64,000 nt of DNA from positions 1 through 64,000 of the forward strand of contig CADCIP010000018.1 in NCBI GenBank assembly GCA_902801485.1, in the 5' to 3' direction. The DNA comes from an uncultured Bacteroidales bacterium (GTDB lineage: Bacteria > Bacteroidota > Bacteroidia > Bacteroidales > Bacteroidaceae). The notes beneath the pieces are model-generated. The model was given only the letters and a program-made list of their open reading frames with translations. It was not told the DNA's origin and searched no databases. Position 1 is the stretch's first letter. Every line of letters begins with the position of its first letter. Below, piece after piece: positions 605-21,911 of this stretch. Position numbers and translations under genes: made by a program.

Positions 605-634
605 TTGAATTTCTCTGGAAATTTGACTATATTA
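605..634 (+). promoter_or_regulatory. Island 30-bp promoter element, copy B
   Basis: TTGAATTTCTCTGG then AAATTTGACTATATTA. A TTGAAT hexamer and a TATATT hexamer are 17 bp apart. It ends 55 bp before the ATG at 689. It aligns base for base with the copy at 2223. Confidence 0.7.
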
Positions 635-688
635 GAAAGGAATAATTACAAAACCAAATAAAACAAAGATAAATAAAAAAGTTTAGAT

Positions 689-2032
689 ATGCATATCAAT
701 GAAGTAGAAAGAATCCTCAAGGATTCTATTGATGGAAAAGAAAAACAGTACGAGGTCAAAAGATATTGTGACCACATCTGTTGCGAGTCTGATTTTGTGT
801 TGCTTTATGACGGTATGGAATTTGCCTATATCAAATTTGACGAAAAAGGTAACATGAAAAAGAAGCAAATGAATATCCATGAAGAGAAAATGGGTACTGC
901 TTCTTTCTATATTGTCATCAAAGATTCTGACGAGTTTATTCCTATTGACCTGCCTTGTAAGGTATATCCAAGGAATAATATGAATACTGTATTTGAATGT
1001 TCGACAGACAACTTGCTGCAAAAACTATGTGATTATCGCTCAACCCAATACACTCCATTGAATATAGAGAAAGTTGCCGAGTTTTTCGAAAAGACCCTTT
1101 CTTCCTTGATAAGAGGAAGGATGCAGGCGTTTATGTCAAAAATAAGAGAAGAAACAAACCTTGCGGACGTCATTGAGGACCATGATACTTATTTTATGCT
1201 TACTCCAAAATATGAGCGTCTGTTTTTTTGCTCACTGCTTGGCAGTACATCTGGAGCACCTAAAAGAGTATGTAGATATACTAGTTTGTCATCGTTATTC
1301 CGCATGCTCTCGGAAGCAAAACAGAGTATGTGTAGTACCATATGTATGAACGATAAAACCGAAAATGACTATTCTATCAAGTATATAAGCGATGCAGTAC
1401 CATTATCGAATGTTATTCAGAGAATGGAAGCCAGATCACCTAAGACAGATGCCCAATCTATGAGTTTTATTCTTTCTGGGAGCAGGATGGGGAAAAAAGA
1501 TGACCTTAATATGTGGAGACTTTATGGTGATGACTCCAAAGGTGTTTGTCTTTGGTATGAAATCGAGGACATGCCCGATAACTTTTTCCTTTCAAGAGTA
1601 AGCTACGCAAAGAATGAAACCCATGCAGAGTTAGCCTATCTTGCCAGCAAGATGGGTAGGGCGGTTTGTGGCAGGAATTTCGAGGTTCGCAACCTGAATA
1701 GTTGGCTACACTTTTTCAAACCTGCGGAATACGCTATAGAAGAGGAAATACGATTGTTATATGAGATGCCCGATGTGAATATGCTTGAATCACTCTATGG
1801 CAAATGGATATTGAATTCAGATAATGGTATCATCGCTCCTGTCGTAAGTTTCTCTGTTGATAAAAAGAACTGCCAATTCCCCTTGGTATTAAGCCGAATC
1901 ATTTTAGGTCCCAATCTGCGAGAACGTAACATAAACATAGAGCAACTGCGCTTAATGATAAAAAACAAGCAGATTAAAGTGGCAGACGATTTTGAAATTG
2001 CGTTTTCAACTATAGAAAGTTATCGGAAATGA
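689..2032 (+). CDS. DUF2971 domain protein
   Basis: A 447-aa protein. The C-terminal half (about residues 195-440) matches DUF2971: an RYTSLSSLFRML opening followed by MNDKTEND, then the hallmark MWRLYGDDSKGVCLWYEI near residue 273, then a FKPAEYAIEEEIRLLYE segment. The N-terminal about 190 residues are not recognised. DUF2971 has no established activity, though such proteins are often found in bacterial defence neighbourhoods (general knowledge, not shown here). The start ATG follows an AT-rich leader behind island element B. A possible 46-aa ORF begins 10 bp after the stop and would be co-transcribed. Confidence 0.7.
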   Translation: MHINEVERILKDSIDGKEKQYEVKRYCDHICCESDFVLLYDGMEFAYIKFDEKGNMKKKQMNIHEEKMGTASFYIVIKDSDEFIPIDLPCKVYPRNNMNTVFECSTDNLLQKLCDYRSTQYTPLNIEKVAEFFEKTLSSLIRGRMQAFMSKIREETNLADVIEDHDTYFMLTPKYERLFFCSLLGSTSGAPKRVCRYTSLSSLFRMLSEAKQSMCSTICMNDKTENDYSIKYISDAVPLSNVIQRMEARSPKTDAQSMSFILSGSRMGKKDDLNMWRLYGDDSKGVCLWYEIEDMPDNFFLSRVSYAKNETHAELAYLASKMGRAVCGRNFEVRNLNSWLHFFKPAEYAIEEEIRLLYEMPDVNMLESLYGKWILNSDNGIIAPVVSFSVDKKNCQFPLVLSRIILGPNLRERNINIEQLRLMIKNKQIKVADDFEIAFSTIESYRK

Positions 2033-2042
2033 TTACTTGCTG

Positions 2043-2183
2043 ATGGACGGTGATACAGCAAGCGATACCAGTCTGATAGAACCCGCCGACAAGAAATGGC
2101 TGATGGAATTGGTTGAGAAGCGCAGGTTAAAACGCGAAGAGGACTGGGGCAGTGAGAATGATGTCGATGAGTTGCCACGTTAA
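2043..2183 (+). CDS. Small charged ORF after the DUF2971 gene
   Basis: Encodes 46 residues (MDGDTASDTSLIEPADKK to NDVDELPR), rich in acidic and basic residues, with a helical stretch WLMELVEKRRLKREEDW. It begins 10 bp after the stop of the DUF2971 gene and ends before the next promoter element. The tight spacing and lack of stops suggest a translated small protein. No family is recognised. It could also be a degraded remnant. Confidence 0.4.
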   Translation: MDGDTASDTSLIEPADKKWLMELVEKRRLKREEDWGSENDVDELPR

Positions 2184-2222
2184 AAGTATCTTTTTGTCAC
2201 CATAAACAAGTTGCTGTGATTT

Positions 2223-2252
2223 TTGAATTTCTCTGGCAAAGTGACTATATTA
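2223..2252 (+). promoter_or_regulatory. Island 30-bp promoter element, copy C
   Basis: TTGAATTTCTCTGG then CAAAGTGACTATATTA. It matches the consensus at almost every position. It lies 113 bp before the truncated DUF2779 start at 2366, so it probably once drove that gene and may now drive the gene at 2478. Confidence 0.7.
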
Positions 2253-2365
2253 GGAAAGAATGAACTGAAAATGGGTGGGTAATACAAATTATTATCTCCT
2301 AATAGCGATACTTTCAAAAATAATACCTAATTTTGGAACGAAATGAAACCTTAGAAACTAAATCC

Positions 2366-2459
2366 ATGAAAGGACTATCTAAATCACGTTATACAGCTTT
2401 TTGTCAATGTCCCAAGAACCTCTGGGCTGAAGGTCTATAAACTAGAAGAAACAATCTAA
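2366..2459 (+). pseudogene. Truncated N-terminus of a DUF2779-type protein
   Basis: The ATG at 2366 opens MKGLSKSRYTAFCQCPKNLW, which resembles the LSKSR...QCPKxLW start of DUF2779 proteins. These carry a Cas4-like PD-(D/E)XK domain with an Fe-S cluster cysteine in this motif. The frame then breaks: one extra G in the CTCTGGG run gives a stop at 2438-2440. Without that base it would read LWLKVYKLEETI and stop at 2457-2459. No further homologous sequence follows, so both a frameshift and a large deletion occurred. The family assignment rests on about 30 residues. Confidence 0.5.
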
Positions 2460-3320: not shown

Positions 3321-3350
3321 TTGAATTTTCCTTGCTAAGTGACTATATTA
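3321..3350 (+). promoter_or_regulatory. Island 30-bp promoter element, copy D
   Basis: TTGAATTTTCCTTGCT then AAGTGACTATATTA. It ends 26 bp before the ATG at 3377. Confidence 0.7.
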
Positions 3351-3376: not shown

Positions 3377-4204
3377 ATGAACACAAACATTGAAAGACTG
3401 AGCCAGATGCTCAAAAGGCATTCCCACTTCTGGACAGAAGCCTTCAAGGACGAGGAAACAGGCGAAGATGTGTCTATAGAAAGAAGGGATATTCTCGACC
3501 CTGACCTCTCCGATGAAGAGCGGCAACTCATTAAAGCTATTGCTGCGGACATTCCCAACCTAACAGATGACGAACTCCATCAATTCAGGGAAGATATAAT
3601 GCCTTTCGACAGTGAGACGATAGACCTGATATACATTGAACGTGTTCGGCGAGGAGAAGAAAGTCTGGCTGAATCTATCGAGGATGTGCCTACGTTGCGA
3701 GTACTCTGCGACAAGGGGAACCGTTGGGCTGCCTATGCTCTGTTCCAAAAATACTATTTGGGCGATGAGAAGCAGGGCATCTTCATCAACAGGCAGAAAG
3801 CCAAGGGATACTACGACTTGGCTGGTGAAATTCCTTATAAAGACAAATGGGACGACAGCGATGACCCAGGCGAACCTAATCCCGGCACCTACGAGTATGT
3901 CCTCACAGGCAATGCCACAAGTCTTGATGCCGTGGAAACTCTCATCCGCGACCTCTGCAAGCGCTTTGGAATACCGGAGAACGAGGAGGACGGACTGGGT
4001 CTCTATGTGCCCCAACGCGCACTGATGAAAGTGCTTGTAGGCAGCGATACGGAATATTATCGCGGCAACATTCTTTATCTGAACCGCGAAGCACCCGACC
4101 GCCTCGTCATTACTTCAGAAGCTGACAATGGCGATCCACTACTCTATGCTCTCCGCCAAGCATATACGAACCTGGATGTTGAGATAAAGAAAACGGAATG
4201 GTAA
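3377..4204 (+). CDS. Sel1-repeat-like hypothetical protein
   Basis: 275 residues, acidic. Residues about 109-150 (LRVLCDKGNRWAAYALFQKYY through KAKGYYDLA) fit one Sel1/TPR-like helical repeat, a protein-binding scaffold. The flanking regions are not recognised. The last third has a YVPQRALMKVLVGSDTEYYRGNILYLN segment of unknown meaning. The gene stands alone between elements D and E, so it is a single-gene unit of the regulon. A role as a binding partner of one of the island ATPases is possible but is inference only. Confidence 0.65.
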   Translation: MNTNIERLSQMLKRHSHFWTEAFKDEETGEDVSIERRDILDPDLSDEERQLIKAIAADIPNLTDDELHQFREDIMPFDSETIDLIYIERVRRGEESLAESIEDVPTLRVLCDKGNRWAAYALFQKYYLGDEKQGIFINRQKAKGYYDLAGEIPYKDKWDDSDDPGEPNPGTYEYVLTGNATSLDAVETLIRDLCKRFGIPENEEDGLGLYVPQRALMKVLVGSDTEYYRGNILYLNREAPDRLVITSEADNGDPLLYALRQAYTNLDVEIKKTEW

Positions 4205-4243: not shown

Positions 4244-4273
4244 TTGAATTTTCAGACAGATGTGACTATATTA
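4244..4273 (+). promoter_or_regulatory. Island 30-bp promoter element, copy E
   Basis: TTGAATTTTCAGACAG then ATGTGACTATATTA. It ends 29 bp before the ATG of the nuclease gene at 4303. Confidence 0.7.
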
Positions 4274-4302: not shown

Positions 4303-5712
4303 ATGGAAACAACAAACCATTTTAAGTACAACATTATTGAAATAGCCAACAAGATTGAAGGGCAGAGGAATAAATCTAAGCATCAATTGCCGTACAATGT
4401 GTTTACCATGTGGGGAATGAGCGAAAACGATCATACGAAGTTGCTACTGGCATTACTTCGTTACCAAGACTCGACTGGACGCTACCCTCTACTGAATAGT
4501 TTCCTGAACAGATTCACAAAAGGGCGTGACAAAATGATTCACTATCAGAACCCTTCGGATGTTATTATTCGCTTCAATCCACGATATGACAAGGATGATA
4601 AACACAGTTTCATTGACGGACTCATCATGTTTTCCGCACAAGGAAAGCGAATAGCCATCATCATGGAGAACAAGATTTTTGATGCTCCCGACCAAAAGGA
4701 CCAAATACGCCGCTATATAACCCACATGACAACTGAAGAGCATATTGCATTGGAAAATGTATGGGTGTTATATATTACCGGAACAGGTACGAAGGAAATT
4801 GATGAATGCAGTTATCATCCAAATGAAGAGTCTGAAGCAACAAATATCGGCCGACGCTTTATCACTCTTACTTATTACGAGGATATCATAGAATGGCTGA
4901 AGCAGGATGTCCTTGAGCATCGCATTTACCCGGAATCACTGGCAAGTATCGTTCGCGCATACGTTGAGTCTCTGGAGAAGGATATCTTTTGCGAAGACAA
5001 AACAGATGCGTGGCGAAAAGACATGCTGTGCAATATTTTAATAGGCTCAGGACATCTCAATGTGAATAAGATGACCGACCGCGATTTCGACTGTCTCTAT
5101 TCTTTCCGCGATTCTGTACAAGAGGTACGCAATGAAATGGCTAAAACTAATAGGGATGAAAAAGATATTCGTGCTGTTGATAATCTGTATGGAGTAATAA
5201 GAGACCTTATCCATGATATAGAGCAACAGGCCTTTGGCGAATTTGAAAGAATCAGTACAGAGATTCTGAACAGCTGGTGGAAGAAAGAACTGAAGAAGTA
5301 TAAGGGAGCACAATGGATTGCCAAGCATCGTGGCCTACGTAGTGACAAAGGATTTGTACAGATAGGTCTTTCCGCAGAATGGGGTACGGCTCATTTGGAA
5401 TGGATTCCCATCAGTGCAAAAAGAATGTGCCTCGGAAATGAATATCAATTGGAATTGCATATTGAAAACGACAAGGCTCTTGCTGACAAATGGCGCAAGG
5501 AACTGAATAGCAATGCCATTTTGCTGCCAGCAAATAACTGCGAAAAAGTAAAAGCTGGCACCAGCAGGCTGCTTCGCTATAAGTTTCAGACTTCAAAACC
5601 AATTGCGAAGATGAGCAAAAAGGAATTGACAGAATTCCTAACTGGAGTTTATACCAAAGAATTGAATTATTGCTGCAGAATGCTTGTTGAGCATTTCAAT
5701 GATTACAAATGA
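4303..5712 (+). CDS. PD-(D/E)XK nuclease family protein
   Basis: 469 residues. The catalytic core matches the PDDEXK_4 family: D105 in FIDGLIMF, then IIMENKIFDAPDQKDQIRRY with E122-x-K124, and a downstream Q and Y in the QIRRY helix typical of the family. The N-terminus has a helical lead with GMSENDHTKLLLALL, the same position where family members carry their S/N-E-xxHS-type motif. The C-terminal 200 residues are not recognised and could bind a substrate or partner. Predicted activity is metal-dependent DNA cleavage. Many relatives are defence nucleases, but the target here is unknown. It is followed by a 77-aa coiled-coil protein, probably in the same transcript. Confidence 0.75.
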   Translation: METTNHFKYNIIEIANKIEGQRNKSKHQLPYNVFTMWGMSENDHTKLLLALLRYQDSTGRYPLLNSFLNRFTKGRDKMIHYQNPSDVIIRFNPRYDKDDKHSFIDGLIMFSAQGKRIAIIMENKIFDAPDQKDQIRRYITHMTTEEHIALENVWVLYITGTGTKEIDECSYHPNEESEATNIGRRFITLTYYEDIIEWLKQDVLEHRIYPESLASIVRAYVESLEKDIFCEDKTDAWRKDMLCNILIGSGHLNVNKMTDRDFDCLYSFRDSVQEVRNEMAKTNRDEKDIRAVDNLYGVIRDLIHDIEQQAFGEFERISTEILNSWWKKELKKYKGAQWIAKHRGLRSDKGFVQIGLSAEWGTAHLEWIPISAKRMCLGNEYQLELHIENDKALADKWRKELNSNAILLPANNCEKVKAGTSRLLRYKFQTSKPIAKMSKKELTEFLTGVYTKELNYCCRMLVEHFNDYK

Positions 5713-6017: not shown

Positions 6018-6049
6018 TTGAGATTAAATTTTCCGAAGTAATTATATTA
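6018..6049 (+). promoter_or_regulatory. Island promoter element, divergent copy F
   Basis: AAATTTTCCG and TATATTATTA are recognisable, but GTGAC is replaced by GTAAT and the spacing is irregular. It ends 25 bp before the ATG at 6075, the same distance as the well-conserved copies. Confidence 0.45.
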
Positions 6050-6074: not shown

Positions 6075-6485
6075 ATGGAATTGACTATTGATTCTAAAAA
6101 GTTTATCAACCAGGTTGACGAACTTTACCAAGTGGCGCTCAATGAGACGGCTTCACTTCTGAAGAACAATCCGAATGGTAGCTACATCGCCGTCCCGGAA
6201 TGGGAGGATGAAGTGGACACCAGAGATTGGAACGACGTGCCCATAGCAATTTGGGCTGTAGGTCTGAATAGCGACGGTCATATTTGCGTCAAAGCCTGTG
6301 TCATGAACGTTGGTTACGGCTATTCTGGTGATGAATTCTCCAATGACTGGGAAGACATCACAGAGCACAAGATTGAAGCTACGTGCTATCCGGAGCTCTT
6401 CCGTTTCGTTGCAGAGAACTTAGACAAAGCTACAACGAAGGAAGAAGCCGACAAAGTCAAGTTGGATGAAGAAGATGAAGATTGA
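6075..6485 (+). CDS. Acidic hypothetical protein
   Basis: 136 residues with a strongly acidic tail (DKVKLDEEDED). The central part alternates strands (IAIWAVGLNSDGHICVKACV, then a Gly/Tyr-rich turn VGYGYSGDEF). No family is recognised. It is the first gene of the longest island operon candidate (6075 to 11157), but a strong hairpin with a T-run separates it from the next gene, so downstream expression may be attenuated. Confidence 0.6.
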   Translation: MELTIDSKKFINQVDELYQVALNETASLLKNNPNGSYIAVPEWEDEVDTRDWNDVPIAIWAVGLNSDGHICVKACVMNVGYGYSGDEFSNDWEDITEHKIEATCYPELFRFVAENLDKATTKEEADKVKLDEEDED

Positions 6486-6690: not shown

Positions 6691-6972
6691 ATGCAAGACT
6701 GGAACAAATACGTCGAAAGACCTTATCAAGAAGTTCTTGAAGAACTGAAGGCAGAAGGTTATCAGGTGGTGAGTGATGGCCTCATTGCCTGTTATAGGAA
6801 TGTCGATCTGCAAAAAAGCGACTTAAAAATCCGGCTGGTGTGTGCGTCATTCGATATGGATGACTTTGATGAGAAACTTAACGATAAAGAGAGAACCTAC
6901 AAGTTGGACGATGTCGATTGGTACACGTTTGAAATCCATGATGAAGAAGGGAATTTATTAACTGATGATTGA
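6691..6972 (+). CDS. Small acidic hypothetical protein
   Basis: 93 residues from the ATG at 6691 (MQDWNKYVERPYQEVLEE). A TTG at 6682 is open in frame but lies in the T-run of the upstream hairpin. The protein is acidic and predicted alpha/beta, ending EEGNLLTDD. Its stop codon nearly abuts the next ATG at 6975, so the two are translationally linked. No family is recognised. Confidence 0.55.
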   Translation: MQDWNKYVERPYQEVLEELKAEGYQVVSDGLIACYRNVDLQKSDLKIRLVCASFDMDDFDEKLNDKERTYKLDDVDWYTFEIHDEEGNLLTDD

Positions 6973-6974
6973 AC

Positions 6975-8627
6975 ATGACAACATTTAACGAATATTGGAA
7001 AGAAAAGGCGCAGAAGCGACGCAAGTCGTGGGCAGCAAAGGCCAAACGTTTTGCTGAAAGGCATATGCAGTTGGCGGCTATCCGAAACGAGATTGTCTAT
7101 GGCCACATAAAAAGAGAAGAGGTGCGCAGCCTTAGGGATAAGCATCGGACTGTTCAGAATCCCATAGCAAGATGGGATTCTAATATGCACTTCTCCTTTT
7201 CAGAACAGGGACTTCGTGAGGCCATGCAAGCAGAGGGTGCCGATGTCAGTTCTTTAACGATGACGATAATCAAGAAAAATATAGTTGGTCAACAACCACA
7301 TGAAATATCATACGGAGACATACTTGACGTTGCCAGCAATCGTCGTGATTTATATGAAAAGTATACTGATTTGGAAACCTGCACCATCAACTACCGAGAA
7401 GTAACGATGGTTATCTACCGCTATACTTATCAGCAGCAGCCTTTTGCCCTGTATGAATTCGTGCCTTGCAAGCAACTGTGCATCGATAATTTTAGAATGG
7501 AGGAGACAAGTTTCAGCACCATGAACATTGCAACTTTCCTGATGGAAATGGCTGCTGAGTACGAGTTGCGGCAGGAGGAACTGAACTACCACGCTAAGAA
7601 ACTGAAACTTCGGACGATGGATGCTGCCCTCACCGACGATATAAGCTTCGAACTTTGGGATGACAAAAAGTTGGAAAAGAAGGTTGCGGAATATGTCAGT
7701 AAGGACTACCCTGTAGAGAAGATGCTTGAGTTGGTGCTCCGCCCGTGGAAGCAGGCCATCACAAAGTTCTTTCATGCTATCACAGAGCAAGAGATTCAAA
7801 ACGCAACAGAGAAATTTAGTGTTTATTCCCTGCGCAGCAATTTTCCGCACTATACCCAAAATGTGCTGCAACCATACTTCAACAAACAAGGTTTGCAAGA
7901 AGTGAAGATGTGGAAACCATATGAAAAGAGTTCAGATTGTTACATAGAATACCAAGGTTATCTGGCAAAATATAACGCTTGGGATGTCGCATTTTATCCG
8001 AATGCACATTATTCTATGTGCTGCTTTTATGGGGAGTTGAATAATACAACTCCCTTGCGTGCCCTTGCCTATTATCTGCAGAAGATGCCTGAAATCAGTA
8101 AGAAGACAGACGAGGTGGTGATAAAAGTTATGCACCTCATTGACGGACTGATGCAGCAAAAGAACGAGAATTATCGCAAGAATGTAGAAATTCTGGACAC
8201 CTTGGCTGCTCAGCATAAGGAAATGCCTGTTGGCAAAATGATGAAGTTCTTACGGTGGAACGCTGGGCGGTTCATCAATCCTAAGCCTAAGGGCAATTTG
8301 TATTTCTCTATTTCTACGATAAAGGTGGTCGGAGAAACGTCTTTCAGTTTCGTGCGGAAAGATGTGCTCCAAAGTTATAGCATGGTCAACGGACAATTAA
8401 CAGTAACATATAAAGATGAAGTCATAGAGAGATGGTTGGATGCAGACTGTCAGAACGTATATGTAGCAGACCCAGTTACAACTGATTACGACGAATGGGT
8501 GAAAAATCATCGGAAGGGAATGTTTGCGGACACCTGGTCGTGGTCTGTACAAAATTTCCTGTGTGATTATTCTCCGCGGGATTCTAAACCTTCCCTCTCA
8601 ATTGATTTCATTGAACAAAAATTATAG
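6975..8627 (+). CDS. Large hypothetical partner of the MoxR/VWA pair
   Basis: 550 residues from the ATG at 6975. A TTG two codons earlier overlaps the previous stop. The N-terminus is basic and helical (KEKAQKRRKSWAAKAKRFAE); the remainder is mixed alpha/beta, rich in Tyr and Trp near the end (TWSWSVQNFLCDYSP). No domain is recognised. The stop lies 5 bp before the MoxR-like ATPase start, so the two are certainly one transcript. MoxR and VWA pairs usually work with a third, variable protein that is remodelled or acts as effector; this protein occupies that position, which is inference from context only. Confidence 0.7.
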   Translation: MTTFNEYWKEKAQKRRKSWAAKAKRFAERHMQLAAIRNEIVYGHIKREEVRSLRDKHRTVQNPIARWDSNMHFSFSEQGLREAMQAEGADVSSLTMTIIKKNIVGQQPHEISYGDILDVASNRRDLYEKYTDLETCTINYREVTMVIYRYTYQQQPFALYEFVPCKQLCIDNFRMEETSFSTMNIATFLMEMAAEYELRQEELNYHAKKLKLRTMDAALTDDISFELWDDKKLEKKVAEYVSKDYPVEKMLELVLRPWKQAITKFFHAITEQEIQNATEKFSVYSLRSNFPHYTQNVLQPYFNKQGLQEVKMWKPYEKSSDCYIEYQGYLAKYNAWDVAFYPNAHYSMCCFYGELNNTTPLRALAYYLQKMPEISKKTDEVVIKVMHLIDGLMQQKNENYRKNVEILDTLAAQHKEMPVGKMMKFLRWNAGRFINPKPKGNLYFSISTIKVVGETSFSFVRKDVLQSYSMVNGQLTVTYKDEVIERWLDADCQNVYVADPVTTDYDEWVKNHRKGMFADTWSWSVQNFLCDYSPRDSKPSLSIDFIEQKL

Positions 8628-13153: not shown

Positions 13154-16100
13154 ATGAAGACATCAGGTAGTCAGAATATAGAACAATACTCGGCTCTTTC
13201 ACAAAATGAGCTCAGGTTGTTGTGCTTTTTGGCTTATTATGGGGAGGTGAAGCCAGAAGGTAAGGCTGCTTGTGCATATCGCAAATTATACGGCATCTCA
13301 CAGCAGGACTATGATAATGATGCTTGGCATCTGATGGAGGCTGGTTTTCTAAGCACAAAGTCATACATTAAGCCAGAAAAACGTCTTGATGTACTTTTGT
13401 ACCTTTATAGAAATCGGAAATGGACCACATCCTTTAAAACAATAGAACCCCACGGAAAATCAAACTCTGCAGAATATCTGTGGAAGATTGCTCAATTATT
13501 GGCAAAAGACGACTTTGCAGGAGCATCTAAGGTTACTCGTCCGTATGTAGGTATAGGATATAAACAGTTTAACCTGTTTAAGTATATCCAGGAACAATTA
13601 TTGGGTGATGCACGTTACATCAAGTTGCTCAATGATCCTGAAATGATGACTATGGTTGATGAATACCTGCGTGAGAAATTCATGAATGATGAATTGGATG
13701 ACGAGACACTGGGGTTATTATCTAAGGCCATTCCTAAAACCCATAAATATCATGATGAGTTGATTGATGAGATATCTGCTTACAGATATTTTCAAACAGG
13801 AATAGCACAAGTTTCTTTAGGTAAACCAACTATGTGGTCTATGGCTGTAGAAGGAATGCAGTTTGCCTATGATGGCCAATTGGAAGAGTCATTACAAAGA
13901 TTTAATACGGCATTGAAACTGTCAAAGACAAATAAAAATGCATTCCCTTCAGATATCTTTAACTATGTTTATGGCATTGTAATATGCAGGCTCAAAAGAA
14001 AATATCCGAACGAGAACTTCTATCTGCAATGCTTTGAGGCATATTCACAGTCAAAGGCACTCCGTTTGGGAAATGAAAATTTCATGATGCGCATTCTCCT
14101 TGACAATATGGATAAAGATGCTGTTCAAGCTAAGAATGACATAAAGAACAGAACAGGCTATATCTTAAACAGTCATCATGAAATACTATACCAGACATGG
14201 GCCTTACTGCTATTCCGTTATTTCGATATAGAGGCTCCAGACATTACCGTTCAACATTCTGCGGCATTCTTCCAACACGAATTGTCAAATTACCAATCCA
14301 ACGCAAAGGTAAAAGATTTTTTTGACAGTAAACCATTGATAAGTTCTTTGCGCAAGAAACAAGCCTGGGAATTATTACTGACAGATATTTCAGAACGAGT
14401 TTCAAAAGAGAACAAGGACACTGAGAAACGATTGGTGTACTACATGAAGGGGAAAAGCCTTCATGCTATTGTTGAACAGACAAGAAAAGAGGGTGGAGAA
14501 TGGTGCAACGGAAGGCTTCTTTCCCGTTCGCAGATGATTGAAGGTGGATATGATAATATGGACAGTGCCGATGTGGCAATTGCCACACAACTAGCTAAAC
14601 CATCAGAGGAAAATGCTTCTGATGCTGATATTATTGTTCCAATATTAGGAGGAACAGACAGGCTCCTATGTGGCAATTATTATGAAGGCAAATCTGTTCC
14701 GATGGAGGTTTCAAAGGAAAGCCCATATCTTGAGTTTAAAGGGGAAGGGGCGCATATAAAAATCTCTTCAAATGTAACACTGGATGCTTCTGGTAGGGTA
14801 CGTCATCACATTGTGAGGATGGACTCTCCAACTCATTTTACGATGATAACCATCAATGCACTTCAGCGTGACATTTTGAAACGTTTCATTCAGATGAGAT
14901 TCTTACCATCATCTGCATTGATTAGTTTAACTAAAGCCATAGATAGCCTAAAAGGAATCATTGATGTAAGAGCGCTACTTCCAGAGCCATCTGTTAATAC
15001 CGCAGTCCCAGGCAAGGGTATTCTTGGAGTCAGAATAACACCCGAAAAACAATCCTATCTGGTCAAAGTTTCTGCCACAGGAATGGAAGACGGCCTCTCA
15101 CGTTTTGTTCCAGCTGAAGGTGAGAGTGTTGTCTATGATGAAGTGGATGGTTTAACTCATTGTGTTCATCGAGACCTAACCAAAGAGTACGAAAACTTCT
15201 GCATGTTAAATACAGTATTAAGCGATGTTGCTCAGGCAGACGTGTTAAAGTCTAATGAATACAGAATCTGGTCGTTAGAAGGTTTGCTACATGTATTGTC
15301 ATTCGTTTTTGACAATAAAGACAGATTCTTTATGGAATGGCCCGAGGGGATAGCAATCAAACTTAAAGGCAATGTAAAAGATGCTGATATTGACATCGCT
15401 GTTCAAAGCGATATGGATTGGTTTAAAGTTGAAGGAGAGGCCAGGATTGCCGGTACTATATACTCGTTAGAAGAACTCATCAATATGTGTAGCACAAGTA
15501 CCATTGAAGGGTTCATCAGATTAAATGATGAAGAGTATGTGCGTATAAGCGAGAAGTTAAAAAGACATATTGCTATGATAGAGTCTCTCACCAGGAAGGA
15601 CGGCAAAAAGAGACATGTATCAAAATATTCCATTGGTGCATTGGCTAATACTATTGATGAGCTGAGACTGAAGACAGATGGCAATTACACAAAGTTCATG
15701 GAGAAGACAAAGGCGGCCTATGCCATCAATCCAGAAATACCCTCTAGCATCAATGCCACACTACGCGATTACCAGAAGGAAGGCTTCAGGTGGATGTGTA
15801 GGTTAGATGCATGGGGAGCTGGTGCATGTCTGGCTGATGATATGGGATTGGGTAAAACCATTCAAGCGTTGACTTTCCTAACCTATAAAGGAAAAAATGG
15901 GGCATCTCTTGTTGTGGCTCCAAAGTCCGTAGTAATGAACTGGGGGGCTGAGGCATCGCGTTTCGCACCACAACTAAATGTAATTATCCTGAACAATGTA
16001 ACAGAGAGGGAATCTGTTATTGAAAAAGCCGGAGTCAATGACTTGATAATATGCACATACGGTTTATTGGTGACAGAGTCAGTCGTAATAACAAGGAAAG

Positions 16101-17143
16101 AGTGGAATGTAGTATGTCTGGACGAATCGCATCAAATCAAGAACCGGAACACAATAGCTTCACAAACGGCTATGGATATTAAGTCAGCTAGTCGGTTAAT
16201 CCTAACAGGAACGCCTCTGCAAAATAACCTGAGTGAATTATGGAACCAATTCCAATTCATTAATCCAGGACTTCTGGGTCCATGGCCCCGTTTTCGTGAC
16301 TGCTTCATGATTCCCGCCTTGGACAATGAGCATAAACTGTTATTGAAGGAAATTACACAGCCATTCATACTTAGAAGAACTAAACAGGATGTGCTTAACG
16401 AACTACCAGAGAAACTTGTCCATACACATTATGTGGAAATGACCGACAAGGAAGCGGAAACCTACGAAGAGATGCGACGCCTCCTTGAAATTAAATTCAA
16501 GCAGAATAAGAACCGGGCAGAAAGAGCTGAAGCAAAAAAACTCGACCTGAATTTCTTCTCGGAGCTGATGAAACTGCGTCAGTCCGCTTGTTCTATGCGA
16601 CTTATTTACAACAGATGGGCAGAGCAATCATCTAAGATTGATACATTGACGCAAATACTCGAAAATATCACGCAAGTTCACGAGAACAATATTCTTATCT
16701 TCAGCCAGTTTACAAGTTTCCTTGAGTTGATTAAGCCAGAACTGAAAAAGCGTAATATGGATTATTTGTACTTAGACGGCCAGACACCATTGGAGAAACG
16801 GAAGGAGATTGTTACCAAATTCCAAACAGGACACTGTAAACTATTCCTTTCCAGTCTGAAAGCAGGCGGTTTGGGGCTAAACCTAACAGCTGCCAATTAT
16901 GTCATTCTGCTTGATCCCTGGTGGAATCCTGCGATAGAAAACCAAGCAATGGATAGAGCTCACAGATTAGGACAGAAACGGGTTGTCTCTGTTATCAGGC
17001 TAATTACAAGCAATACGATAGAAGAGAAAATTCTCCGACTGCATGAGACAAAACAAAACTTGTCAGATGACATCCTTGAAGGCACAGGCGAGAGCTATAA
17101 ACTCACATACGAAGATGTTATGGATATGGTGACACCATTTTAA
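13154..17143 (+). CDS. SNF2-family helicase-like ATPase
   Basis: 1329 residues. The SNF2 motor occupies about residues 870-1320: motif I DDMGLGKT near 894, motif II LDESHQIKN near 988 (DESH), LTGTPLQNNLSELWNQF, and in the C-terminal lobe FSSLKAGGLGLNLT-type motif V (LSSLKAGGLGLNLTAA) and motif VI QAMDRAHRLGQ near 1266. The N-terminal 850 residues are helical and partly repeat-like (possible TPR), then a DUF-type linker; there is no clear SWIM zinc finger. SNF2 enzymes translocate on double-stranded DNA and move bound proteins. It heads a three-gene operon with the RavA- and ViaA-like genes, 18 bp apart. This grouping is what is unusual about it. Confidence 0.9.
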   Translation: MKTSGSQNIEQYSALSQNELRLLCFLAYYGEVKPEGKAACAYRKLYGISQQDYDNDAWHLMEAGFLSTKSYIKPEKRLDVLLYLYRNRKWTTSFKTIEPHGKSNSAEYLWKIAQLLAKDDFAGASKVTRPYVGIGYKQFNLFKYIQEQLLGDARYIKLLNDPEMMTMVDEYLREKFMNDELDDETLGLLSKAIPKTHKYHDELIDEISAYRYFQTGIAQVSLGKPTMWSMAVEGMQFAYDGQLEESLQRFNTALKLSKTNKNAFPSDIFNYVYGIVICRLKRKYPNENFYLQCFEAYSQSKALRLGNENFMMRILLDNMDKDAVQAKNDIKNRTGYILNSHHEILYQTWALLLFRYFDIEAPDITVQHSAAFFQHELSNYQSNAKVKDFFDSKPLISSLRKKQAWELLLTDISERVSKENKDTEKRLVYYMKGKSLHAIVEQTRKEGGEWCNGRLLSRSQMIEGGYDNMDSADVAIATQLAKPSEENASDADIIVPILGGTDRLLCGNYYEGKSVPMEVSKESPYLEFKGEGAHIKISSNVTLDASGRVRHHIVRMDSPTHFTMITINALQRDILKRFIQMRFLPSSALISLTKAIDSLKGIIDVRALLPEPSVNTAVPGKGILGVRITPEKQSYLVKVSATGMEDGLSRFVPAEGESVVYDEVDGLTHCVHRDLTKEYENFCMLNTVLSDVAQADVLKSNEYRIWSLEGLLHVLSFVFDNKDRFFMEWPEGIAIKLKGNVKDADIDIAVQSDMDWFKVEGEARIAGTIYSLEELINMCSTSTIEGFIRLNDEEYVRISEKLKRHIAMIESLTRKDGKKRHVSKYSIGALANTIDELRLKTDGNYTKFMEKTKAAYAINPEIPSSINATLRDYQKEGFRWMCRLDAWGAGACLADDMGLGKTIQALTFLTYKGKNGASLVVAPKSVVMNWGAEASRFAPQLNVIILNNVTERESVIEKAGVNDLIICTYGLLVTESVVITRKEWNVVCLDESHQIKNRNTIASQTAMDIKSASRLILTGTPLQNNLSELWNQFQFINPGLLGPWPRFRDCFMIPALDNEHKLLLKEITQPFILRRTKQDVLNELPEKLVHTHYVEMTDKEAETYEEMRRLLEIKFKQNKNRAERAEAKKLDLNFFSELMKLRQSACSMRLIYNRWAEQSSKIDTLTQILENITQVHENNILIFSQFTSFLELIKPELKKRNMDYLYLDGQTPLEKRKEIVTKFQTGHCKLFLSSLKAGGLGLNLTAANYVILLDPWWNPAIENQAMDRAHRLGQKRVVSVIRLITSNTIEEKILRLHETKQNLSDDILEGTGESYKLTYEDVMDMVTPF

Positions 17144-17161
17144 TTGAAAAGCCAAGCAAAT

Positions 17162-18571
17162 ATGAAAGATAAAATAGAGAAACTATTAAATGCCTTGTCG
17201 AAAGGGGCATTCGAACGCGAGGAAATAATTTCACTTGCATTACTCAGCGCTCTATCTGGGGAGTCCATCTTCCTGCTAGGACTACCTGGTGTAGGTAAGA
17301 GTATGATAGCAAGAAGGCTGAAAATGGCTTTTAAGAATAGCCAGAGTTTTGAGTATCTGATGAGCCGTTTTTCTACACCAGATGAGATATTCGGACCAGT
17401 CAGTATCAGCAAGCTCAAGGATAAAGACACTTATGAGAGAGTTGTTGATGGTTACCTTCCTACAGCAGATGTCGTTTTTCTGGATGAGATATGGAAAGCT
17501 GGCCCAGCAATTCAGAATTCGCTGCTAACCGTACTTAATGAGAAGGTTTTCCGTAACGGCAAACAGGAAATAGCACTGCCGTTGAAAACTGTTATATCAG
17601 CCTCTAATGAACTTCCTGCAGAAGGAGAAGGGCTTGAAGCCTTGTGGGACCGTTTCCTCATTAGATATGTTGTAAAGCCAATAGAAGACAAATCTAACTT
17701 TATCAGTCTGATTAGTGATCAATTGGAAACGTGTGAGATTGCGGAAAATCTAAAGTTCACAAAAAAGGATTTGCAAGAGATCCAAAAAGGTTCCAATCAT
17801 ATAAAATTAACTTGGGAAATAAGCGAACTCATGTTCGCTATTAGGAAAACCCTGACAGATGAACGGAACAATATGAACGAATCGGTGGATGTCACCCAGT
17901 CAGATATTGTAGACCCACCGTATGTATCTGACCGACGATGGCGTAAAATCGTTAGTGTTCTTCGCACTTGTGCATATTTAAACGGAAGAGACAAAGTTAA
18001 TGCTTCTGACTGCGTTCTACTGATTCACATGCTTTGGGATAATGATGAGCAGATATATTCTGTCAAGAAGTTGGTAGCTCAGGCAATTACTCAGAACATG
18101 AAGCATTTCCACGTTGATGTAATGAGTAAAATTGAAGGACAGAAATTCACCAAACCGGTGGGGGAACCTATCTTGCCAGATGGGAAGCACTATATATTTA
18201 TAGTAGGTGACGAGGATGTCAAAATCAGTAAGAGTGACTATGAAAGCTTGTCTGAAAAGAATAGGTATGGAGTAATGTCAGATGACGGCATTTTGTTGCT
18301 TTGTGATGATCCGACAGGACTTAGCGTAAGAAAATCGGAGGATGGACTTATTATAAACTCATATAAATATCCGTTAAAAAGAGACTCTAATTTGCGCACA
18401 GGCTCTGTTAAAGGCATGATTGACACTGTTAAGACAGAAGTTGACGCTTTAGAGAGCGAACTTAAGGAACAAGTCAACGACAATCTGTTCCTCGGTTCGT
18501 ATGAACAATATCATTTTCTGAGGAAAGCATTTGTTGATATGAAGAACAACTTCTCCAAGAAAGGGTACTAA
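17162..18571 (+). CDS. ravA: RavA-like MoxR AAA+ ATPase
   Basis: 469 residues from ATG 17162; the frame opens at a TTG at 17144, but the ATG has better context. Walker A GLPGVGKS at residues 40-47, then ARRLKMAFKNSQSFEYLMSR, FSTPDEIFGPVSI, Walker B VVFLDEIWKAGPAIQNSLL from about 104 and ASNELPAEGEGLEALWDRF. These stretches follow E. coli RavA closely. RavA forms hexamers and works with the VWA protein ViaA. The C-terminal third is less conserved and would correspond to the partner-binding region. The next gene starts directly after its stop codon. In Enterobacteria this pair acts on respiratory complexes and LdcI; here it is linked to a SNF2 motor instead, so its target probably differs. Confidence 0.85.
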   Translation: MKDKIEKLLNALSKGAFEREEIISLALLSALSGESIFLLGLPGVGKSMIARRLKMAFKNSQSFEYLMSRFSTPDEIFGPVSISKLKDKDTYERVVDGYLPTADVVFLDEIWKAGPAIQNSLLTVLNEKVFRNGKQEIALPLKTVISASNELPAEGEGLEALWDRFLIRYVVKPIEDKSNFISLISDQLETCEIAENLKFTKKDLQEIQKGSNHIKLTWEISELMFAIRKTLTDERNNMNESVDVTQSDIVDPPYVSDRRWRKIVSVLRTCAYLNGRDKVNASDCVLLIHMLWDNDEQIYSVKKLVAQAITQNMKHFHVDVMSKIEGQKFTKPVGEPILPDGKHYIFIVGDEDVKISKSDYESLSEKNRYGVMSDDGILLLCDDPTGLSVRKSEDGLIINSYKYPLKRDSNLRTGSVKGMIDTVKTEVDALESELKEQVNDNLFLGSYEQYHFLRKAFVDMKNNFSKKGY

Positions 18572-20059
18572 ATGAAATATTCGACTCTCATAAGAAGGCT
18601 TCTTCAGGCTTCCGAAGAATCAAAGTGGCGCCGAAAGGATGTTGCTGAGATTCTGCGCGAACGCTGTGTAGACGGAGCTGACCCTATCAGGCAAGCTCTA
18701 ATGAATGCTGTGTGTGACCCTAGGTTTAAGTTACATGTTGGTGTATTGAAAGATTGGAAAAAGAAAGCCCAAGTGTTTCTGGAAGAATGTTCAGAAAAAC
18801 TGAAGTCCATACAAAATCTAACCGAGGATGTAGCTTATGAGGAGATGGATGAGATGCTGAACAGATGGTTACGTATGGCCATGGAAGAAGCCCGACTTGC
18901 TGACGGAAATGGAATAAAATTCATAATGGTACCCAAAGGTGAAAGTGGCAAAAGCTACATTCGAATGAGAGAAGCTATCGAAGAATATGTAAATGGAGAC
19001 GAAGATGACAAGCAGGAAAAGGCTGGAGAGGATGATGAAGAAGAACTGACATGGAATAGCAAAGCATCTGATGATAAAGAGAAGGAAGAAAAGGAAGAGG
19101 AGGAAGGTACAACAATAGACACTGATTATGACTTGGATGGAGAAGAAGAAGTTGTTGAGGAAAATCTGAAATCGATTTCAAAAGGTTGGAGAAAGAACCA
19201 TAAAGTAATAGAAAACCATTTTTTTACCAAGGTTCCACCATCGCTTATCAAATTAGCCAAACTGATAGGAAGGTCTGGTGATGGGATAATGGAATCAGGG
19301 GGAACTTTCTTTACTGCATCAAAAAGTGATATTGGTGGAATAACAACTGGGGATGACCTTAACAGTCTTCTTCCTTCTGAACTAGCGTTGCTATCAGAAC
19401 CAAGTACTCAGGCCCTTTTTTATAAAAACTATGCAACAAAACGATTACAGGTTTTCTCATCTATGTCGCACGAATCAAATGGAAAGAAACACAGAGATGG
19501 GCCAATTATAATATGTATGGATGCTAGCGGTTCAATGGAGGGTATACCTGTAATAGTTGCAAAAGCCATTACAATTGCTCTCTGTATCATAGCTCAGAGA
19601 AGGAGGCGACGTGTTCTCGTGATCAAATATTCAAATAGTCATGAGATGTTCACACTGCGCAATATTGAACAACAACGGAAAGAGCTAATATCGTTCTTAA
19701 GTACAGCAGAACTAGCCGGAAACAACGAAAACAGTCTGTTTCAATGGTTATTCAATGAAGTGATGCCTAATGAACGAGATTATAATTGTGCAGACATTCT
19801 TTGCATCTCTGATTTCGGTTGGACGCCTATAGAAGAAGATACAATGGAGTTTATAAAAAAAGAAAAAGCAAAAGGAGTTGTGTTTTATGGCCTAAATATT
19901 GCAGACGATAATGAAGCAGATGAACATTTTGGATATCATAACATCTTTAAAACTGAGCACCGTAATGGAACCCCAGAAGATGTTTGCGATTCCCTTTGGG
20001 AATTCAAGAACGGAGCTTGTTACAAAGTGAATCGGTCGGATAGTACAATGGTACGTTGA
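18572..20059 (+). CDS. viaA: ViaA-like VWA protein
   Basis: 495 residues, close to E. coli ViaA (483). The VWA domain starts near residue 310 (GPIIICMDASGSMEGIPV) with the metal site D317-x-S-x-S321, followed by ITIALCIIAQRRRRRVLVIK and DILCISDFGW. Between residues 145 and 200 is a very acidic low-complexity linker of Asp/Glu/Lys. The N-terminal helical part is specific to the ViaA family. It is immediately adjacent to the RavA-like gene (ATG follows the TAA), as in ravA-viaA operons elsewhere. Confidence 0.85.
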   Translation: MKYSTLIRRLLQASEESKWRRKDVAEILRERCVDGADPIRQALMNAVCDPRFKLHVGVLKDWKKKAQVFLEECSEKLKSIQNLTEDVAYEEMDEMLNRWLRMAMEEARLADGNGIKFIMVPKGESGKSYIRMREAIEEYVNGDEDDKQEKAGEDDEEELTWNSKASDDKEKEEKEEEEGTTIDTDYDLDGEEEVVEENLKSISKGWRKNHKVIENHFFTKVPPSLIKLAKLIGRSGDGIMESGGTFFTASKSDIGGITTGDDLNSLLPSELALLSEPSTQALFYKNYATKRLQVFSSMSHESNGKKHRDGPIIICMDASGSMEGIPVIVAKAITIALCIIAQRRRRRVLVIKYSNSHEMFTLRNIEQQRKELISFLSTAELAGNNENSLFQWLFNEVMPNERDYNCADILCISDFGWTPIEEDTMEFIKKEKAKGVVFYGLNIADDNEADEHFGYHNIFKTEHRNGTPEDVCDSLWEFKNGACYKVNRSDSTMVR

Positions 20060-20179: not shown

Positions 20180-20485
20180 ATGAATTACAACGATATTAAG
20201 AAAAAAATGTTCGTCAGAGAACTTCATATGAGAGAGTATTATAACGAGGAAATAGACGATTACAATACTGCATTCTCTTTCGTAGTTGACTTTGACAGGA
20301 AACGATACACTGTAGGTGAATTGTTCTGTGACTGCATCTACTCTATTGATGAAGTAGAACGATACATTGTAAAGTATCTGATGGCAAGGACTGAGCACGA
20401 TGAATCGAAGTTATATTGGCAGATGGTTGAAAATAGCCAGCTAAACAAAGAAACAGAAAAGATAACAAAAATACAAGATGAATAA
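20180..20485 (+). CDS. Small hypothetical protein
   Basis: 101 residues, predicted beta then helical, with an EVERYIVKYLMARTEH helix and a charged C-terminus. No family is recognised. Its 3' end overlaps the next gene by 8 bp, so the two are co-translated. It follows island element I. Confidence 0.6.
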   Translation: MNYNDIKKKMFVRELHMREYYNEEIDDYNTAFSFVVDFDRKRYTVGELFCDCIYSIDEVERYIVKYLMARTEHDESKLYWQMVENSQLNKETEKITKIQDE

Positions 20486-21197
20486 ATCAAGCAATAAGAA
20501 GAAAGAAGAGATTTTGGCTCTCATCATCAGGTCGTTTCCGATCTATGAGGTGCAGCAGATTTGTATTGACAGTCATCGTTACCCTCGAAGGCGAAACAGG
20601 CTGCAACGCGTTGGACTCTTCCAGACGAAGGAAGGTGCAAAGGGAGCCATGCATGAATACATTAAGCACGAAAAGAAGTGCTGCGAGACGTGGGGAGGGA
20701 ATTACTATGCCGACTGCCTCGGATACTTCATAGACGAGGTTCCTGTTTTTAACCGGTTCTATAAAATCATCGATGACAAGCGGCCGAACAAGTGTTATTC
20801 TTATACCGCAGATGGTGAATTGAATGACTGTGCCGCTTTGGATGAGTTTGGATGGTATCGTGATCGTAAGGTGAAGGACATCCGTTTCAAGGAAGGCGAC
20901 ATCGTGGAGATTCTTGGTTTTGACTATTCAGAATTGGCCATTGTGTCAGCTCCGCCGCCATCGAAAGAGGTTTATAAGCAATTAGCAAAGCGAGCAAAGG
21001 AACTTCATCCCAAGCAGTCGTTCTTCATGGACGAGAGTGATGACTGCTACCTTGTCTATACCCTTGGCGAAGGCGACACGCACGAGCACGTTCTCTGTTT
21101 TAATGTTTTCCGTCCAACTCGACCTGTCCCTGCTAAAATTGCTACCCAATTGAAGGAAAAGCTGGAAGAGATGAAAAAAACTTATGGTGAACTTTAA
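20478..21197 (+). CDS. Hypothetical protein
   Basis: 239 residues with a basic start (MNKSSNKKKEEILALIIRSF). It has an aromatic and cysteine-rich middle (KKCCETWGGNYYADCLGYFI) and an acidic C-terminal half with an FKEGDIVEILGFD strand pair. No family is recognised. It overlaps the upstream 101-aa gene and is followed within a few bases by island element J. Confidence 0.6.
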   Translation: MNKSSNKKKEEILALIIRSFPIYEVQQICIDSHRYPRRRNRLQRVGLFQTKEGAKGAMHEYIKHEKKCCETWGGNYYADCLGYFIDEVPVFNRFYKIIDDKRPNKCYSYTADGELNDCAALDEFGWYRDRKVKDIRFKEGDIVEILGFDYSELAIVSAPPPSKEVYKQLAKRAKELHPKQSFFMDESDDCYLVYTLGEGDTHEHVLCFNVFRPTRPVPAKIATQLKEKLEEMKKTYGEL

Positions 21198-21223
21198 ATT
21201 TTTCTGGTGAGGTGACTATATTG
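21194..21223 (+). promoter_or_regulatory. Island 30-bp promoter element, copy J
   Basis: TTAAATTTTTCTGG then TGAGGTGACTATATTG. It begins inside the last codons of the preceding gene and ends 25 bp before the ATG at 21249. Confidence 0.7.
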
Positions 21224-21248
21224 TATTCGTAACGTAAAAAGAACGATT

Positions 21249-21461
21249 ATGAATACAACAAAAATCACTTTCAATTCTCTTCCTCAGTTTAGAAATTTCT
21301 TGAACCTTCTTAAAACCAAAAGAGTTACAAACATTAATTCTAACCATTCCTATCCTTACTCTATTACTTTTACCACCAAAACCTCCAAACAAACCAACAA
21401 CCTTCTAAAACACTTACATCTTTCACCCATCCAACCCACCTCTTACGCTCTAGCAGCGTAG
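21249..21461 (+). CDS. 70-aa protein ending in ssrA-like YALAA, over a G-free tract
   Basis: The protein is rich in Thr, Asn, Ser, Lys and Leu and ends TSYALAA. YALAA is the ending of tmRNA (ssrA) tags that target proteins to ClpXP. From 21325 to 21446 the coding strand contains no G at all (122 nt), and the whole gene holds very few. Right after the stop is a run of seven G. The start ATG is 25 bp after island element J, so it is expressed as its own unit. No family is recognised. The protein may be short-lived by design, or the RNA itself may be the active product. Confidence 0.6.
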   Translation: MNTTKITFNSLPQFRNFLNLLKTKRVTNINSNHSYPYSITFTTKTSKQTNNLLKHLHLSPIQPTSYALAA

Positions 21462-21497
21462 TGGGGGGGTATGCTATTTAAATCAAAGAGAAAGTAA

Positions 21498-21878
21498 ATG
21501 AAAATACCCGTTATTATGGATTATACAAGGAGTTACCTTATAGATCGATTAAATCATAAAGAACTGCAGGTAGGCGATTTGGTTTATTACCTATCTAAAA
21601 CCTCACGTTATGCTATCAAGAAATCAACCATTGTAGCAAAGAAAGAGATTCCATTTAACCATCATACCCGTCCGCTAGGCGGTTGCAGATTGACATTGGC
21701 AGATGGTACTGTACATGAGTACGATGATATTTTCGATTCCAAAAAGAAAGCTCTGGAATATATTGTTGCTGATCTGAAGTGCAGTCTGGCTCACCATCGC
21801 ATGGGACTTCAGACAACTCTGCAAAGAATAGCAGAAGATGAGCGATTATTAGCCTTATTTGAAAAAAAGTTACCCTGA
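21498..21878 (+). CDS. Hypothetical protein
   Basis: 126 residues with a beta-rich middle (LQVGDLVYYLSKT, then GGCRLTLADGTVHEYDDIF) suggesting a small barrel, and a helical C-terminus. No family is recognised. It starts 36 bp after the YALAA gene with no island element between, so it is probably in the same transcript. An RBS-like GAGAAAG precedes the ATG. Confidence 0.6.
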   Translation: MKIPVIMDYTRSYLIDRLNHKELQVGDLVYYLSKTSRYAIKKSTIVAKKEIPFNHHTRPLGGCRLTLADGTVHEYDDIFDSKKKALEYIVADLKCSLAHHRMGLQTTLQRIAEDERLLALFEKKLP

Positions 21879-21881
21879 TGA

Positions 21882-21911
21882 TTAAATTTTCTTGGTGCTT
21901 GTTCTATATTA
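21882..21911 (+). promoter_or_regulatory. Island 30-bp promoter element, copy K
   Basis: TTAAATTTTCTTGG then TGCTTGTTCTATATTA. GTGAC is lost, but both hexamers and the 17-bp spacing remain. It lies 119 bp before the AAA ATPase gene. Confidence 0.55.

Follow-up and report, generated by a model that had tools for sequence, protein, structure and literature searches.

A long promoter-like element before defence-type genes in islands of a Bacteroidales genus, and its recurrence in viral contigs

The first contig considered here (C18, GenBank CADCIP010000018.1) belongs to an uncultured Bacteroidales bacterium (assembly GCA_902801485.1) whose genome, 3.6 Mb in 85 contigs, is estimated to be 85% complete. 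The window, by which is meant the whole stretch of 64,000 nucleotides that was analysed, begins at the first base of this contig of 66,777 bases and carries an island of genes, many of them of defence type, whose left end lies outside view because the window starts at the contig end. Distributed over the island are copies of a sequence element of the form TTGAATTT-N15-TATATTA, and the best-supported statement that the sequences allow about it is that it would form a promoter class apart from the vegetative promoter of the host; the same class recurs in other islands of the genus and in viral contigs. The original prediction had placed ten copies of a 30-bp element in the island, and all ten were recovered, on the plus strand and thus on the same strand as the genes:

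605..634, + strand: element, 54 nt 5' of ORF 689-2032; 31.1 bits, 28.6 when held out
2223..2252, + strand: element, 5' of a truncated DUF2779 start (2333-2440) and of ORF 2478-2975
3321..3350, + strand: element, 26 nt 5' of ORF 3377-4204
4244..4273, + strand: element, 29 nt 5' of a PDDEXK_4 nuclease gene
6018..6049, + strand: doubtful element with two additional spacer bases, 25 nt 5' of ORF 6075-6485; 16.4 bits
11205..11234, + strand: element, 29 nt 5' of ORF 11264-11716
13060..13089, + strand: weak element abutting the stop codon of 11848-13059, 64 nt 5' of an SNF2 gene; 20.5 bits
20106..20136, + strand: element, spacer of 11 nt, 43 nt 5' of ORF 20180-20485
21194..21223, + strand: element, 25 nt 5' of ORF 21249-21461; its TTAA includes the stop codon of 20478-21197
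21882..21911, + strand: weak element past the stop codon of 21498-21878, 119 nt 5' of an AAA ATPase gene

Eight of the copies (605, 2223, 3321, 4244, 11205, 13060, 21194, and 21882) are exactly 30 bp long, as had been predicted, with hexamers TTGAAT and TATATT separated by 17 nt; the copy at 20106 is longer by one base, and that at 6018 can be fitted only if two bases are added to the spacer. From the ten sites a two-block weight matrix was derived (TTGAATTT and 12 bases ending in CTATATTA, with spacers other than 10 penalised; matrices, gene calls, and distances were obtained with simple scripts), and it ranked them as the top ten positions on both strands of the 64 kb, at 17.8-31.6 bits with the next position at 13.6; the best scores in single-strand order-1 Markov copies, six in all, were 10.9-16.6 bits. 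Because the matrix derives from the sites themselves, each was also held out in turn; nine of the ten still scored above every non-site position of the 64 kb, narrowly at 13060 (14.9 versus 14.3 bits for the best non-site) and 21882 (15.9 versus 13.6), and the held-out site at 6018, with 12.5 bits, was equalled by two non-sites of the window and is not established. The expectation that most copies end 25-65 bp before a start codon was borne out in eight of ten, 6018 included, when measured from the end of TATATTA, the exceptions being 21882, at 119 nt, and 2223, from which the truncated reading frame is 80 nt away and the longer frame that follows it 225 nt. Right of 25 kb, where ordinary promoters had been expected, TTG-N19/20-TAnnTTTG was found in 4 of 25 upstream regions and in none on the reverse strand, and the element in none of the 25.

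The phylum Bacteroidota lacks the classical sigma-70 factor and its boxes, and its members are described in PMC7366714 as using one unusual vegetative promoter, read by sigma-ABfr and consisting of TTTG at -33 and TAnnTTTG at -7, together with extracytoplasmic function (ECF) promoters. Ordinary genes of the present genome carry TTG-N19/20-TAnnTTTG(C), and 35-42 nt 5' of the TA lies an A-rich tract, as judged from 400-460 kb of the 3.6 Mb. The element shares much of this frame: at a 10-nt spacer its TTG lies 23 nt before the start of TATATT, in keeping with the 22-23 nt that separate the -33 TTTG/TTG from the -7 TA of vegetative promoters, an A-rich tract stands upstream at about the same place, and TA..TT is retained. 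It differs in its -7 box, which is TATATTA/G and not TAnnTTTG (TTA for TTTG), in the extended TTGAATTT, and in a nearly fixed C before TATATT. Among 305 ordinary upstream regions with a rightly spaced TTG, TA..TT was followed by TG in 44 forward versus 12 reverse cases and by CG, the next largest excess, in 2 versus 0, while dinucleotides beginning with A followed in 6 forward and 5 reverse cases and thus without excess. The long form of the element occurred in none of 270 ordinary upstream regions, and no position in 400 kb of ordinary sequence scored 18 bits or more. Since endings in A show no excess and neither of these scans returned the element, it is probably a class of its own, distinct from the vegetative promoter, and not a weak vegetative promoter; as TTA replaces the TTTG end of the -7 box, the vegetative holoenzyme probably reads it poorly.

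That the element is a promoter at all, with transcription starting at it, is very probable given its position with respect to genes. In 41 loci, 89 host elements of at least 20 bits were collected (those at rpoD in L066 and L068 are excluded, and not all 89 are independent, L064 and L217 being the same island in two genomes), and a same-strand gene start lies within 150 nt of 64 of them, at a median of 30 nt and at 20-36 nt in 39; 25 have no gene start within 150 nt. The upstream stop codon is at most 60 nt away in 44 of the 89 and lies within the element in 12, which fits the G/A variation at its third position, the stop codon falling in its first bases. Across 18 own-genome sites the flanks are unconserved beyond the A-rich tract, and a few copies on contig C37 do have longer flanks in common; the idea that the element is part of a longer duplicated stretch was rejected on account of the unconserved flanks and because viral contigs, which share almost no proteins with the islands, have it too. 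A palindromic operator was likewise rejected, the column profile showing no symmetry evident by eye. The 17 nt between its hexamers would in themselves suit a classical sigma-70 promoter (TTGACA-N17-TATAAT), but the phylum lacks that factor and its boxes. T4-type late promoters consist of TATAAATA with the -35 box absent, from which the element departs in having a conserved TTGAATTT box along with TATATTA. Bacteroidota have a further promoter motif besides the vegetative one in PM2 of Bacteroides thetaiotaomicron, and in this PM2 resembles the element; PMC7366714 describes it as near-palindromic, with centres at -10 and -30 and a link to oxidative stress, whereas the element is without evident symmetry and precedes defence-type genes.

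The concentration at homologous islands that had been predicted was found both in this genome and in the genus. At up to three mismatches the own genome gave 12 matches, of which C18 has seven, C37 four, and C7 one, versus 1 for the control, and a profile search added weaker matches on C18 and C37 and a doubtful one on C40 (E 1.4); as this search scored 150 of 1602 candidates in the own genome, and 150 of up to 624 in some viral records, its counts are lower bounds. The first 16 kb of C37 form a second array with elements on one strand, including McrB/McrC, DUF2779, ATPase, and beta-flower genes, and have small genes and a promoter region in common with the window. Near the C7 match, within about 5 kb, lie what we take to be RtcB-like and PrfH-like genes. 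One specific site thus stands before several transcription units and is rare elsewhere in the genome, as in a regulon; the recognised genes behind the own-genome matches include no housekeeping or stress gene, and most genes there have no assigned function. The GC contents of the two arrays, 0.424 and 0.404, are lower than those of sampled remainders of their contigs (0.463 and 0.484), but 20 regions elsewhere in the genome span 0.402-0.492 and so include the array values. At up to two mismatches, 31 of 139 genomes of the genus, the own included, gave 78 matches versus 3 for the reversed pattern, and 12 of the 139, again including the own, have two or more matches on one contig and one strand. 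The 392 other genomes of the order gave 18 matches versus 18 for the reversed control, one or two scattered ones in each of 16 genomes, and element clusters therefore appear, in this sample, to be a trait of the genus.

The expected absence from housekeeping genes held in the own genome, where rpoD has no match, and did not hold in close relatives, where element-like sites precede rpoD. Of the 78 matches in the genus, three are rpoD sites (G006, G022, and G098). Among relatives whose RpoD is at least 97% identical, an element-like site stands before rpoD in 9 of 20 at 15 bits or more and in 5 of 20 at 20 bits or more; the remaining rpoD loci gave 6 of 30 at 15 bits or more, several of these being the vegetative box itself (2 of the 50 loci surveyed gave no start). 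In one species group (L076-L095) the element-like site overlaps the vegetative rpoD promoter, mostly ending a few bases past the start of the TAnnTTTG box.

The genes of the island, preceded by one that lies 5' of the first element, are as follows (Pfam scans covered 20 window proteins, two of them outside the island):

157..588, + strand: HU-family DNA-binding protein (HU-HIG), 5' of the first element; Pfam PF18291, 1.8e-16
689..2032, + strand: uncharacterised, weak match to PDC-S31, a defence candidate; PADLOC 1.3e-6, PHROG 1762 4.5e-17
3377..4204, + strand: uncharacterised; its family is found repeatedly in islands with elements (cluster 9, 5 loci)
4303..5712, + strand: PD-(D/E)XK nuclease, defence candidate PDC-S26; Pfam PF14281 4.1e-14, PADLOC 9.5e-20
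6075..6485, + strand: uncharacterised; its homologs in L050 and L226 follow an element
6969..8627, + strand: uncharacterised (cluster 10, 5 loci)
8633..9697, + strand: MoxR-like AAA ATPase; Pfam AAA_5 9.4e-9
9694..11157, + strand: VWA-like/DUF2201 protein; Pfam PF09967 and PF13203
11264..11716, + strand: DUF1281_C-like protein; Pfam 1.3e-4, just under the curated cut-off
11848..13059, + strand: AAA_14/DUF4143 protein, defence candidate PDC-S01; Pfam, PADLOC PDLC04791 3.6e-179
13154..17143, + strand: SNF2 helicase, DpdE/ZorD-like; Pfam, PADLOC DpdE 1.2e-133
17144..18571, + strand: MoxR ATPase (bpMoxR); Pfam PF20030 4.9e-54
18572..20059, + strand: VWA-like protein; Pfam VWA_2 6.6e-4, under the cut-off
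20180..20485, + strand: C-half of a 209-aa family, the N-half (sigma region 1.2-2) being absent; 96% and 91% identity to homologs in L050 and L052 over ~100 aa
20478..21197, + strand: uncharacterised, next after the sigma-like gene in L050, L052, and the window
21249..21461, + strand: small uncharacterised protein (cluster 5, 6 loci)
21498..21878, + strand: uncharacterised (cluster 6, 6 loci)
22031..23704, + strand: AAA ATPase, IetA-like; Pfam AAA 3.7e-24, PADLOC IetA 4.6e-31

The suggestion that these genes serve one system was not upheld. Islands of the genus share gene families in shuffled order, among them the AAA ATPase of 22031-23704, PDDEXK_4 nucleases, DUF2779 proteins, proteins of 70 and 126 aa, MoxR/VWA pairs, AAA_14-DUF4143 proteins, McrBC, and NT5C nucleotidases, and model matches point to a shuffled set of several separate, mostly defence-type modules. 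In another genome (L061) an 84% identical homolog of 11264-11716 has an element 32 nt 5' of it. Of the 64 proteins encoded directly behind host elements, 59 were scanned (four of 45-47 aa and one of 96 aa were left out), and these matched 120 PADLOC models at 1e-5 or better versus 2 for 59 size-matched ordinary proteins, a count in which many models overlap or describe generic AAA ATPases; defence families are thus enriched over the genome background, as in defence islands. The PADLOC matches include seven AAA ATPases with IetA, three PDC-S26, two PtuA, one DpdE, and one AbiEi, and the commonest Pfam domain is AAA (7 of 59), with NT5C in 5 and Sigma70_r2 in 2.

Beyond bacterial genomes, the pattern TTGAATTTN{9,11}TTACTATATTA was found in 53 stretches on 38 of 2.9 million viral contigs versus 1 for the reversed pattern, an earlier variant of it having given 10 versus 1. 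In the sampled stretches, sites above 22 bits number 18 in the 410-kb contig G143, 11 in G145, 5 in G144, and 4 in G146, with none in order-2 Markov copies (one per stretch), and profile matches at E 0.5 lie on one strand in all of at least 23 cases in G143, in 7 of 7 in G144, and in 10 of 11 in G145, among the matches listed. Of 82 sites of at least 16 bits in these stretches (one of them from a contig, G140, that was later dropped), 41 have a gene 20-35 nt downstream, as do 35 of 72 sites at further viral loci. Vegetative-type promoters were seen in none of 164 sampled upstream regions of G143 and in 2 of 104 of G145. The share of genes with a Shine-Dalgarno-like site is 0-5% in G143-G146 and 9% in the host, and the viral contigs in which the class recurs mostly have Bacteroidota-type translation signals.

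Sigma region 2 was recognised above the Pfam cut-off in 6 of 23 viral records, namely G140 (dropped), G143 (410 kb), G149 (376 kb), G154 (200 kb), G159 (112 kb), and G153 (108 kb), and sigma-70-family proteins are thus encoded by five of the ten searched records longer than 100 kb (G143, G149, G154, G153, and G159). As the protein is identical in G149 and G154, and again in G153 and G159, these represent three kinds; that of G143 has 412 aa, and that of G153 and G159, with 265 aa, aligns with the host RpoD along its length. The window itself yielded neither the regulator nor the alternative sigma factor that the original prediction had called for, its sole sigma-related gene being the C-terminal remnant at 20180-20485. 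Of that earlier proposal, support was found for a site that behaves as a non-vegetative promoter and for the concentration of matches at homologous islands; no regulator was found in the window, and the element is not private to the island, as it also occurs in viral contigs.

The reading that we tentatively prefer takes these observations together. RNA polymerase carrying a phage-supplied, or phage-altered, sigma factor would read viral and island elements alike, and the island genes, each module having its own copy of the promoter, would be switched on at phage infection. The element, its specificity, distribution, and geometry, the viral recurrence, and the sigma genes in some of the largest viruses are matters of sequence; that the factor which reads the element is supplied by the phage is less likely than not. 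The fuller proposal, in which the defences of the genus are wired to a large-phage promoter, so that the sigma factor of an incoming phage, or the phage's takeover of RNA polymerase, fires at once an arsenal that the vegetative sigma factor leaves quiet, is rather unlikely as a whole.

Several observations weigh against this reading. The viral pattern was picked after G143 had been inspected, the exact island form with GTGAC had no match in the viral contigs, and a lower matrix cut-off places a few G143 sites on the opposite strand. The two forms also differ, in that islands have G-T-G/T-A before CTATATTA and viral sites T-T-T-A: GTGAC or GTTAC before TATATTA with a 10-nt spacer is typical of islands (84 of 89), and TTTAC, often with a 9-nt spacer, of viruses, in a comparison biased by the matrix-based selection of sites. 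Among 39 viral loci with at least five genes each, 6 abound in Shine-Dalgarno-like sites, unlike Bacteroidota, and probably belong to other hosts. Contig G140 was rejected as support on this ground, 17 of its 22 genes having Shine-Dalgarno-like sites, and it presumably carries a gp55-like gene beside a gp47-like one. G139, G141, G142, and G147 show 0-1 matches among those listed, which may be chance. Sigma genes occur in only 6 of the 23 viral records and in none of G144-G146, which may be fragments, and the element-like rpoD sites of close relatives point to a factor present in uninfected cells. Viral stretches are almost devoid of homologs of island proteins, so there is no support for the islands having descended from these phages. 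Lak megaphages, finally, relatives of G145 and G146, had been expected to carry the element, and the genomes Lak-B1, Lak-A1, and Lak-C1 have it only at control level, with 2 matches versus 1 for the control.

A separate observation on the Lak phages is that TA..TTTG, the vegetative -7 box, is enriched upstream of genes in sampled stretches (L228, L231, and L232) of two of these megaphages, at 12 versus 2 of 85 and 10 versus 2 of 72.

Nearly as likely as a phage factor, although still rather unlikely in its own right, is that the element is read in uninfected cells by a genus-specific, host-encoded alternative sigma factor, or by an activator acting with the vegetative sigma factor, the islands forming an ordinary regulon and the phages borrowing its promoter. 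The restriction of island clusters to the genus in the sample, the element-like rpoD sites, and a geometry equal to that of vegetative promoters would fit such a factor, as would the 24 sigma region-2 matches in the own genome, most of them in frames of ECF size; none of these is linked to the element. Against it, the own genome has matches nowhere but in the two arrays and on C7, where the recognised genes are not those of housekeeping or stress, and ECF promoters are not known to have the geometry of the element. If a host factor does read it, the islands would still be a regulon of defence-type genes, and we found none such described.

Less probable is that the vegetative holoenzyme itself reads the element, with TTGAATTT, the fixed C, and the A-rich tract offsetting the lost TG in a strong variant spread by module duplication. 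The spacing and upstream tract are those of vegetative promoters, some rpoD promoters have TTGAATTT-N15-TATATTTG, one step off the element (L100 and L119), and duplication of modules is seen in the islands. TG is, however, the only ending enriched at ordinary genes, where the long form is absent (0 of 270), and copying of modules is insufficient because viral contigs share the element and almost no proteins.

Still less can be said for a factor encoded by the islands, and we regard it as very unlikely that the -7 box is recognised by their sigma region 1.2-2 proteins in concert with host RNA polymerase. Genes for such proteins adjoin elements in L050, L052, L056, L057, L059, and L215, some directly behind them, and the sigma part of the L052 homolog was assigned by Pfam (homologs at L050:18546-19175 and L052:8009-8638). 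The copy in the window nevertheless lacks the sigma part, five of the six (L050, L052, L057, L059, and L215) lack the aromatic pair of region 2.3, which L056 keeps, similar proteins occur in six element-free loci, and no region-2 match at E 0.01 was found on C18 or on C37:1-16 kb, the single C37 match lying at 44.9 kb. A cassette boundary, recombination site, or operator in place of a promoter is the least credible alternative, for although upstream stop codons are close and truncations lie just behind elements (20180 and 2333) in islands of modular build, the distance to start codons is narrow, the hexamers are spaced as in promoters, no symmetry is evident, and the element precedes other genes in viral contigs.

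Two further observations concern the sigma-like proteins. At L057:8008-8778, behind an element, a 5'-nucleotidase (NT5C) is fused to sigma region 1.2-2, and as the initial protein clustering merged the two families through this fusion, statements on sigma-like proteins rest on the sequences themselves. The element-free loci, from six genomes (L207, L208, L209, L211, L212, and L213), encode sigma-like proteins of 169-210 aa and are possibly another mobile element.

Further known parallels concern phages and their satellites. Jumbo phages of a second group, described in PMC7824862, are large phages, some of Bacteroidota, that combine host RNA polymerase with a sigma factor of their own, none encoding its own polymerase, and include a Prevotella Lak megaphage. 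G145 and G146 each encode one Lak-related protein (53% and 40% identity, respectively), whereas the three Lak genomes carry the element only at control level. No promoter sequence of Bacteroidota sigma-encoding jumbo phages was found in the literature, and no description of the element or of a Lak promoter was among the matches listed in the open-licence literature. Phage-inducible chromosomal islands and jumbo-phage satellites likewise carry defence genes, their spread being tied to phages according to PMC12595487; Pfam scans recognised no integrase or packaging gene among the 18 island proteins of the window. Found in large phages as well as in accessory islands, a second promoter class of such length would provide a sequence handle for infection-linked genes and uncharacterised defence modules across this large genus, and raises a testable idea of how costly defences stay off until needed.

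Several genes of the island have relatives elsewhere. The SNF2-MoxR-VWA triplet of 13154-20059 is conserved in other Bacteroidales with the element absent (L013, L014, and L015), loci that share with C7 (L020) what is presumably an RtcB-like gene; none of five homologous SNF2 loci in other Bacteroidota genomes has the element. Three Prevotellaceae megaplasmids (L186, L187, and L188) encode a homolog, with 42-48% identity, of the AAA ATPase of 22031-23704, near which MoxR/VWA-like pairs lie in two of the three, and the three stretches together gave one weak element match of 16.6 bits. Since the SNF2 loci are free, and the megaplasmids nearly free, of the element, it is independent of the SNF2 and AAA genes as such. 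Behind the element at 2223, the start of a DUF2779 gene (2333-2440) is cut to 35 codons and, by comparison with a longer paralog on C37 (L018:728-2458, minus strand), is a remnant. Two very small genes of the window (3118-3300 and 5781-6017), one membrane-like with EGCSTS and the other ending in IERDFRCxETxLE, each occur once there and have counterparts at about 4460-4640, 4210-4443, and 2525-2758 of L018, the IERDFRCxETxLE gene being present twice on C37 as a tandem duplication.

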